64,000 bases of DNA, taken from Anas platyrhynchos. Its lineage: Eukaryota > Chordata > Aves > Anseriformes > Anatidae. Within the stretch, counting starts at the first letter, position 1. Every line of letters begins with the position of its first letter. A program made the position numbers and the translations under genes. Positions 5,970 to 62,382 of this stretch are shown here, in pieces. The notes under the pieces were generated by a model. It was given only the letters and a program-made list of their open reading frames with translations, ran no database searches and had not been told where the DNA came from. The stretch is taken from contig NC_092611.1 of the NCBI RefSeq assembly GCF_047663525.1, forward strand, positions 6,237,001-6,301,000, given 5' to 3'.

Positions 5970-6015
5970 CTGGCAGGGATTAGCCCATGGGGAGCCACCC
6001 GCTAATCCCTGCCAG
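5970..6015. promoter_or_regulatory. Perfect 15-bp inverted repeat with TAATCC/GGATTA cores
   Basis: CTGGCAGGGATTAGC at 5970-5984 is the exact reverse complement of GCTAATCCCTGCCAG at 6001-6015, with a 16-bp spacer. Each arm contains GGATTA/TAATCC, the core recognised by K50-class homeodomain factors (OTX, CRX, PITX, GSC). It lies 95 bp upstream of the sushi gene start codon, so it is either a promoter element or, if transcribed, a 15-bp stem in the 5' UTR. Confidence 0.6.
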
Positions 6016-6109: not shown

Positions 6110-7131
6110 ATGGGGCTGGGGCTCCTCTTCCTCGCCCTGCTGGCCACGCTGGGCTCCGGCGAGTACCCAGGAGGTAACAACGGGGGGTTTGGGACGAGGG
6201 GGATCTCAAAAAATGCTGAAATTTTGGCACTGGGGAAGGGAGAGCGAGCTGCAAGGAGAATTTGGGGGCTCACGAGGAGGCTGAGAGGAGCCTTTGGGCT
6301 CACACCTCCCACCCGCAGCTCCCTGCGGGCTGTGGGGCTGGCGGGCAGGGTGCTCCTCAGCCCCCCTAACCCCGCTGCGCCCCTCTCCCCAGCAGCCCAG
6401 GACACCTACTGGGCCGGCACAGCGCCCATCTGCCTGGGGGGCTGCAAGGGGAAGCACAAGGAGCTGAAGAGGAGCCAGTGCGGGGCCGGCAGCTGCTGCT
6501 GGCTGGGCTACAAATCCTTCTGCCGAGGTAGAGTGGCACAGTTTGGGGCCATGCATTTTGGGGCCATGCATTTTGGGGCCAAGATTTTGGGGCCTGGATC
6601 CCATTTGTGGGGATTTTCCTCGTCCCCAGTGAACTGCGGGCGGCCCGAGGCCGACTTCAACTCCCTGGTGCACGGCAACGACTGGTGGGTGGGCTCGGTG
6701 GTGCGCTACAGCTGCCGGCCCGGCTACCTGCTGCTGGGGGACCCGGCCAGCGCCTGCCAGCCCGACGGCCGCTGGACCCCAAAGCCCACCTGCCTCCGTG
6801 AGTACCCCATGGGGTGGCAGCGGAGCCGTGCTCACCCCAAACCCGCCACGGGGCTGGAAAAAGATTTGGGGAGCACCCAAGGGACGCGCTGCGGTGCTGC
6901 TTGCTCTCAGGGATCTGCCTGCGAGGCCGGATCGAGCTCAGCGAGCGGGAGGTGTCCGGGGGGTGCTCCTCATCCTGCGGCACCCTGAGCCACCTGGGGT
7001 CCCCCTCCCCGGCTCGGGGCTGCATCAAGATCTCCGCCTGCGTCCCCAAACGCCCGGGCTGGGCGCGTTGGTTCCTGCGCTGTGACCGCTGCGAGTGCGA
7101 CTGCTACGTCCCCTGCGGGGGCTCCCAGTAG
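6110..7131 (+). CDS. Small secreted cysteine-rich protein with one sushi (CCP) domain, unnamed
   Basis: Four exons: 6110-6173, 6393-6527, 6630-6797, 6911-7131. All junctions are phase 1 with good GT-AG sites, giving 195 aa. Residues 1 to about 17 form a hydrophobic signal peptide (MGLGLLFLALLATLGSG), so it should be secreted. Exon 2 encodes a six-cysteine module (about 26-64) opening with YWAGTAPIC and containing GSCCWLGYKSFC. Exon 3 encodes one sushi domain (C69-C121) with the four expected cysteines plus YSCRPGYLL and DGRWTP. Exon 4 encodes a basic tail (124-195) with ten cysteines, ending in CDRCECDCYVPC. The mature chain has 20 cysteines and no membrane segment or GPI-type tail. One domain per exon with uniform phase is typical of genes built by exon shuffling. 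I do not recognise the gene, and I do not expect it between HINFP and ABCG4 from the mammalian order. Exon 2 has a NAGNAG acceptor (6390-6395), so one alanine is optional. Function is unknown; a ligand-binding or complement-like role is only a guess. Confidence 0.85.
6541..6595 (+). repeat. Short tandem repeat, TTTTGGGGCC-based
   Basis: In intron 2 of the sushi gene, TTTGGGGCCATGCATT occurs twice in tandem. It is followed by two shorter degenerate copies that share only the TTTTGGGGCC part. It is purely intronic. Confidence 0.7.
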
Positions 7132-9218: not shown

Positions 9219-14859
<5,641 letters not shown>

Positions 14860-30499: not shown

Positions 30500-31032
30500 A
30501 ATAATTCTAATTTGCAAGGCGCAGGGGGCGGCGCGGCCTGGGCCCAGCAGGCCGCCAGACCCGTTGCCATGGCGATGCCGCCCCGCCCGGCCCGCGCCCC
30601 CCTCCCGCCCTCACCAAACATGGCCGCCGCGCCGCCCTCCCCTCCCCGCGCGCCTGCGCGGAGCCGGCGGGAGGGGGGACAGAGCGCACGGGCGCTGCCC
30701 AATAGCCGCCGGCCCCTCCCCGGCGGAGTGGGCGGGGCGAGGCGGGCGGGGGGGCGGCGCGACCAATCAGCGCTCAGCTGGGGGGCGTGGCCAAGGGGGG
30801 TGTAGGGCGTGGCTGGCGCGGAGGGCGGCACTTGGGCGGAGGGCGGGGCAGGGGCCGGAGCCGGGCGCCCCCCGCTGCCGCCGCCGCCGCCACCGCCAGC
30901 ACCGCCCGCGGGCTCCGCGGCTGCCGCTGCCGCCGCCCTCCCGGCCTGGCCCGGCTCGGGGCTGCGCCCCCCCTTCCCCGGCCGCTTTCCCTGCAGGGCC
31001 CTGAGGCCCGGAGCCGCCCCCGCGCCGCTCTG
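30500..31032 (+). promoter_or_regulatory. CBL CpG-island promoter
   Basis: Extreme GC/CpG density with no TATA box. CCAAT boxes lie at 30699-30703 and 30763-30767, and a GC box (GGGCGGGGC) at 30730-30738. GTTGCCATGGCGAT at 30563-30576 matches the palindromic RFX X-box GTTGCCATGGCAAC at 12 of 14 positions. The block serves CBL and could also act on CCDC153, which points the other way. Confidence 0.65.

Positions 31033-62382
<31,350 letters not shown>

Follow-up and report, generated by a model that had tools for sequence, protein, structure and literature searches.

A putatively secreted sushi protein of the duck carries a six-cysteine module related to a rare bacterial module

The window analysed here is a 64,000-nt stretch of the Anas platyrhynchos genome (RefSeq assembly GCF_047663525.1, contig NC_092611.1, positions 6,237,001 to 6,301,000 of the forward strand). 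It contains a predicted gene of four exons, referred to below as the sushi gene, the features of which are collected in Table 1. Upstream of it, four C2H2 finger matches lie between 2.7 and 4.0 kb of the window, in a gene which we take to be HINFP. Downstream, an exon encoding a Walker A motif (11204-11359) has human ABCG1 as its best PDB match (E 1.4e-14), and the corresponding ABCG1/ABCG4-type transporter fits ABCG4; further downstream, a RING exon (54088-54405) matches CBL-B (2.7e-28) and CBL (1e-27). Because the flanks fit HINFP and ABCG4, the sushi gene sits in the interval to which the initial annotation had assigned it. To our knowledge, no such gene lies between HINFP and ABCG4 in mammals. 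An Rfam search of the whole window returned nothing at gathering scores. Elsewhere in the window, one strand is strongly enriched in G over positions 31001-32000 (GC skew 0.42), and degenerate GGGGTTTGGG-type tandem repeats occupy 31182-31459, near the border of its GC-rich and GC-poorer parts.

Table 1. Coordinates of the sushi gene and associated features in the window
Feature	Position	Strand	Basis
Perfect 15-bp inverted repeat, arms 5970-5984 / 6001-6015	5970-6015	.	Sequence
Exon 1, with the start codon and a signal-peptide-like N-terminus; phase 1 at its end	6110-6173	+	Re-derived from sequence; signal by eye
Exon 2, phase 1-1, CAGCAG tandem acceptor	6393-6527 or 6396-6527	+	Sequence
Six-Cys module WxGTAPxCxGxC(17)CxxGxKxxC, related to a bacterial module	6410-6523	+	Profile and genome searches
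Intron 2, 102 nt (multiple of three), in-frame stop-free	6528-6629	+	Sequence
Exon 3, phase 1-1	6630-6797	+	Sequence
Sushi/CCP domain, four Cys	6635-6793	+	Pfam PF00084, E 4e-10, residues 69-121
Exon 4, ten-Cys basic tail and stop codon TAG 7129-7131	6911-7131	+	Sequence
ATTAAA	7418-7423	+	Poly(A)-signal-like hexamer scan

Re-derivation from the sequence bore out the four-exon model of the initial annotation, including its frame, coordinates, phase-1 junctions and 20 cysteines. All three introns begin with GT and end with AG, all three junctions are in phase 1, and the spliced product is a protein of 195 aa in which the cysteines are distributed as 6 + 4 + 10. The tandem acceptor of exon 2, which had been overlooked, allows an alternative product of 194 aa when position 6396 is used. 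Retention of intron 2 would keep the frame open and add 34 residues; a 15-bp tandem repeat of 3.6 copies, in frame and stop-free, is located within this intron at 6542-6594. The N-terminus, MGLGLLFLALLATLGSG, resembles a signal peptide, as judged by eye only. The single AATAAA, ATTAAA or AGTAAA hexamer within ~1.27 kb after the stop codon is the one listed in Table 1.

The GC content at codon positions 1, 2 and 3 of the four-exon gene is 0.59, 0.61 and 0.93, respectively. Among 20,000 draws of equal length per exon, 1359, 569, 535 and 478 (exons 1-4) were open and at least as biased at the third position; the draws were taken on both strands from other parts of the window between 5.3 and 31 kb, with 10.9-13 kb left out, and probably include some exons of the next gene. 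We take the gene to be real because of its structure, its coding bias, the CCP match and the whole-length match of exon 2 to a bacterial module (see below). Judged from its sequence, it is a real gene, spliceable and open, with a coding signal throughout and homology in two of its exons. A search of the PMC literature by neighbour, gene-name and module-string terms found no paper, and an automatic name in the public annotation is quite possible.

By its sequence, exon 3 encodes an ordinary, complete sushi (CCP) domain. The PF00084 match is full-length (profile positions 1-56 of 56) and scores 40.4 bits against a cut-off of 20.7, and Sushi was the sole domain found by Pfam on the whole protein. 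The proposal of one module per exon and a single CCP thus agrees with both the re-derived exons and Pfam. The best PDB matches of the protein are complement receptors and regulators, namely, CR1, CR2 and factor H. In the genome of the same bird, which comprises 42 contigs, at least 28 CCP matches were found besides the three of the gene itself, the best-scoring ones being on contigs 35 (44%) and 2 (46%), where, unlike in the sushi gene, they cluster as in multi-CCP genes. In common with other sushi/CCP/SCR proteins (PF00084), the predicted protein has a complete CCP that is encoded by one phase 1-1 exon; unlike them, it has one CCP only, and the flanking modules do not match the CCP model. An RCA-type assignment generally calls for three or more consecutive CCPs, and the gene model has one.

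The module encoded by exon 2 (module 1) follows the pattern WxGTAPxCxGxC...CCWxGxKxxC. Searched alone, it had no match in Pfam (E up to 10), NCBIfam (E up to 1) or PDB (E up to 10), and no solved relative was found in the latter. A trefoil domain was considered, from its C-x4-CC spacing, and was rejected, with no Pfam family listed at E up to 10. Three other matches in the 1.26-Gb genome of the bird (E 1.59 or worse) were attributed to chance on inspection and, as far as sequence searches tell, module 1 is single-copy in this genome.

Relatives of module 1 were found outside animals. In viral contigs, the pattern W-x-G-T-A-P-F-C occurred at 11 loci, of which one, L018, was kept and the other ten were taken for chance; the L018 product has a signal-peptide-like N-terminus followed by WDGTAPFCDGEC...SACVTGSKALCC and a ricin-B lectin domain. 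The tighter pattern WxGTAPxCxGxC was found at 58 loci in genome contigs and two in viral contigs, one of the latter being L018; the viral locus L082 is without the downstream C..G..K..C motif. This motif was present at 21 of the 58 genome-contig loci, which together with L018 yields 22 loci with 28 module copies, and the 37 genome-contig loci without it were discarded as chance matches, although L045, L065 and L080 among them resemble members of the family that have been truncated or interrupted. The hosts of the module include Actinoallomurus, Nitrosospira, Methylobacterium, Limnobacter, Cupriavidus, Massilia, Lysobacter, Legionella longbeachae and Microbulbifer. By eye, a hydrophobic N-terminus precedes the module at 19 of the 22 loci; it is absent from L024 and L052, and in L051 the module is C-terminal and the copy divergent. 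Two copies of the module, as counted by the motif used, are present at 6 of the 22 loci.

No Pfam model (17 bacterial proteins searched) or NCBIfam model (6 proteins) names the bacterial module. The partner domains recognised by Pfam in the 17 proteins were ricin-B lectin (L018 and L040), BTRD1 repeats (L030 and L066) and an M35 protease (L051); matches below the cut-off to zf-FLZ (L034 and L050) and Toxin_13 (L073) were taken as chance. The initial annotation had considered the architecture of the duck protein not nameable. This holds insofar as no library tried names it, but the first module is no orphan, given that bacterial relatives exist.

Several of the bacterial loci have features of their own. 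In Actinoallomurus, the module ends a short open frame of 80 (L024, 3441-3680, minus strand) or 92 (L052, 1501-1776, minus strand) residues from stop to stop; these frames are without an obvious signal peptide and look like a small precursor peptide. At six loci (L029, L031, L034, L050, L055 and L076), repeats of the YGPDTCxxGFVWREAxxxDHVCVTP type come after the module; no Pfam match to these repeats exceeded the cut-off. Mobile elements adjoin or sit in some module genes: in Nitrosospira (L049, L058 and L074), the module and transposase sequence share one stop-to-stop frame, the L049 transposase being an IS6/IS240-type DDE match, and the module-like start of L065 continues into a match to Tn3 transposase.

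The duck module aligns with the bacterial module over its whole 40 residues. The alignment with the six-Cys subtype of Actinoallomurus and Nitrosospira is gap-free, at 55% and 48% identity, respectively. Two positions, invariant in all other rows of the 17-row alignment, carry I instead of F and L instead of T in the bird; furthermore, unlike its bacterial counterparts, the bird module precedes a CCP and belongs to a spliced animal gene.

To assess this likeness, controls were run for both the pattern of the N-terminal third, by which the relatives had been fished, and the downstream motif, by which they had then been filtered. Profiles (A1 and A2) were built without the bird from 16 of the 28 bacterial copies, hand-picked as being without the long loop; copies with this loop, the second copy of L066 and, as near-duplicates, L058 and L074 were excluded. 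The 16-copy profile scores the bird protein at 41.2 bits (E 7.5e-15 for one sequence), and the best shuffles reached 15.4 bits (20,000 free shuffles) and 21.9 bits (20,000 with Cys fixed). The 28 columns after the fishing pattern account for 24.0 bits, a score reached by none of the 20,000 free and none of the 20,000 Cys-fixed shuffles, with unlisted worst-scoring shuffles counted as not reaching it; the best shuffles for these columns scored 13.5 and 18.9 bits, respectively. With the Cys and the motif G and K fixed, none of 20,000 shuffles reached the score of the bird C-terminal part under the same profile.

The downstream-motif filter biases tests on the C-terminal part, and an unfiltered control was run. 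When copies were chosen solely by F or Y before C1, the downstream motif was present in 25 of 28, compared with 3 of the 38 others and 169 of 13,200 shuffled downstream stretches. An unfiltered profile of 26 sequences, truncated ones included, scores the bird C-terminal part at 20.2 bits, which was reached by none of 20,000 free shuffles and by 5 of 20,000 with all Cys and the motif G and K fixed. In the reverse direction, the Actinoallomurus module searched against the 1.26-Gb bird genome retrieved exon 2 at E 2.1e-8 (56% over 39 residues) as the sole significant match; the other five matches (E 0.977 or worse) look like fragments. The bird genome contains five exact DNA matches to WxGTAPxCxG, of which exon 2 alone continues as the module. 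On the strength of these sequence comparisons, we consider the exon 2 module to be homologous to a rare bacterial module found mostly in secreted proteins. The C-terminal part also supports homology, mainly through its framework of Cys, G and K; without the downstream filter, the C-terminal evidence beyond these residues is modest.

CCPs also end in W-x-G-x-x-P-x-C, and one of the five genomic WxGTAPxCxG matches (L111) looks like a CCP end, as might be expected if exon 2 were itself a decayed CCP end and its bacterial likeness convergent; the five motif-fixed shuffles that reach the bird C-terminal score under the unfiltered profile point the same way. However, the likeness continues through the C-terminal 28 columns, and the 17-residue interval between C2 and C5 of the bird is the same as in 10 of the 28 bacterial copies, which makes such an origin highly improbable. 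The profile of the bacterial module also matches the CDGSH iron-sulfur protein CISD3 (chain 6avj, E 4.5e-4). This was taken as coincidence: this chain shares short P-[FY]-C-D-G stretches with the module, but the likeness is local, spanning 8-18 residues only.

The cysteines between C2 and C5 number 0 in 20 and 2 in 8 of the 28 bacterial copies, and never 1, with near-identical copies counted three times for Nitrosospira and twice for Actinoallomurus. The bird module has two. Because C3 and C4 are either both present or both absent in the 28 copies, the pattern suggests that they bond to each other, and in the simplest reading C1, C2, C5 and C6 would be left to form two disulfides. Single-sequence AlphaFold models were poor, with a mean pLDDT of 50.8 for module 1 and 45.3 for the tail.

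The tail encoded by exon 4 has the cysteine spacing C-x14-C-x3-C-x14-C-x5-C-x13-C-x2-C-x-C-x-C-x3-C. Its description as basic was correct, if mildly so (11 K+R versus 6 D+E, pI 8.8). No relative was found in NCBIfam (E up to 1) or PDB (E up to 10), and the sole Pfam match, to EP400_N (E 0.35), is below the cut-off. Five further matches of the tail in the bird genome had E 0.543 or worse, and the two inspected were taken as chance. A likeness to the second Cys domain of Nitrosospira-type proteins was tried and rejected, with a score of -5.2 bits and over half of the listed shuffles scoring as high.

Our leading, if still tentative, reading is that the sushi gene encodes a secreted, disulfide-rich extracellular binding or adaptor protein of ~19 kDa, composed of three exon-encoded modules. 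The open, spliceable structure, the coding signal, the CCP, the homology of module 1 and the co-occurrence of C3 and C4 are observed; expression, secretion, disulfides, the binding role and the tissue are what we infer. The protein would be secreted, and module 1, stapled by the C3-C4 disulfide and two more among C1, C2, C5 and C6, may act as a small binding module; two bacterial proteins have it between their signal peptide and their ricin-B lectin domain. A protein-protein contact would come from the CCP, the basic tail could anchor the protein on matrix or acidic glycans, and the whole could act as an extracellular adaptor, plausibly recognising a glycan or a cell surface. The idea of glycan binding is weak, because only 2 of the 17 bacterial proteins searched with Pfam have a recognised lectin domain.

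The inverted repeat upstream of the gene raises the prospect of a more specific role. Each of its arms contains TAATCC, one per strand, ~95 bp before the start codon, and the window has one other perfect repeat of at least 13 bp with a loop of 3-40, at 13924. TAATCC is a CRX/OTX-type site, and the product might be secreted by photoreceptors or the pineal under the control of factors of this type, a reading favoured by the presence of such a repeat, with one site per arm, near the start. Six-base sites are common, however, and the repeat might instead be an RNA hairpin in the 5'UTR: as RNA, it adopts a stable fold (z -3.1), with 1 of 200 shuffles as stable. The repeat is thus a possible regulatory element or 5'UTR hairpin, and we regard the photoreceptor or pineal role as rather unlikely and the expression of the sushi gene in retina or pineal as a lead only.

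Small size, abundant cysteines, probable secretion, a mildly basic character and the lack of a name in the libraries tried would also suit a fast-evolving factor in reproduction, such as an egg-coat or seminal protein, or in host defence. The 55% identity of module 1 to a bacterial copy instead suggests constraint on exon 2 (or recent transfer), not fast change, and a factor of this kind is accordingly an unlikely description of the gene.

The initial annotation had also put forward a complement regulator, an egg factor and a decoy as possible roles. As a small soluble complement regulator, the product would bind C3b/C4b or another complement protein through its CCP and damp or redirect the cascade. 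The best PDB matches, CR1, CR2 and factor H, lie in this direction but reflect the CCP fold. Known C3b/C4b regulators generally use three or more consecutive CCPs, and here one CCP is flanked by two non-CCP modules. The single CCP counts against the proposed role and, because of it, complement regulation is less likely than the binding or adaptor role; we hold it to be distinctly improbable. That the locus represents a chance or decayed set of exons and no functional gene, as the lack of any known such gene in the mammalian interval might hint, is scarcely credible for four exons that are free of stops and frameshifts, have GT-AG sites and third-position bias, and include two with homology.

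For the binding or adaptor protein that we favour, the origin of module 1 is of particular interest. The module profile was found in at least 2 of 396 genomes in a sample of the Actinoallomurus phylum and at least 1 of 398 in one of the Nitrosospira phylum, seeds included, with at most 18 candidates scored per genome; beyond the seeds, the sole further match in these samples was partial and weak (E 6.5e-4). Plasmids and phages gave 2 and 1 partial matches to module 1, respectively, at E 3 or worse. In viral contigs, alignment A1 yielded 27 pattern matches, none confirmed at the search threshold, and whole-protein relatives yielded 3 pattern matches in viral contigs and 62 in genome contigs, none of them confirmed. 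Judging from the phylum samples, the module seems to be rare among bacteria and scattered in its distribution, a spread that fits gene traffic in either direction. Similar motifs may also occur in invertebrate proteins. One speculative and rather improbable scenario is that exon 2 is a bacterial module that was transferred into an animal lineage, became a phase 1-1 shuffling exon and joined a CCP, giving rise to a new secreted pattern-recognition or matrix protein that was kept in birds and lost in mammals.

The sushi gene links a bird genome to a small Cys-rich module that is common to bacteria and an animal, is unmatched by Pfam and NCBIfam models in the proteins searched, and yields a testable prediction on its disulfides. 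Should the module be of bacterial origin, the gene would be an instance in which an exon-shuffled animal protein recruited a transferred domain; an ancient module would instead be an extracellular one that is widely scattered and still missing from Pfam and NCBIfam.
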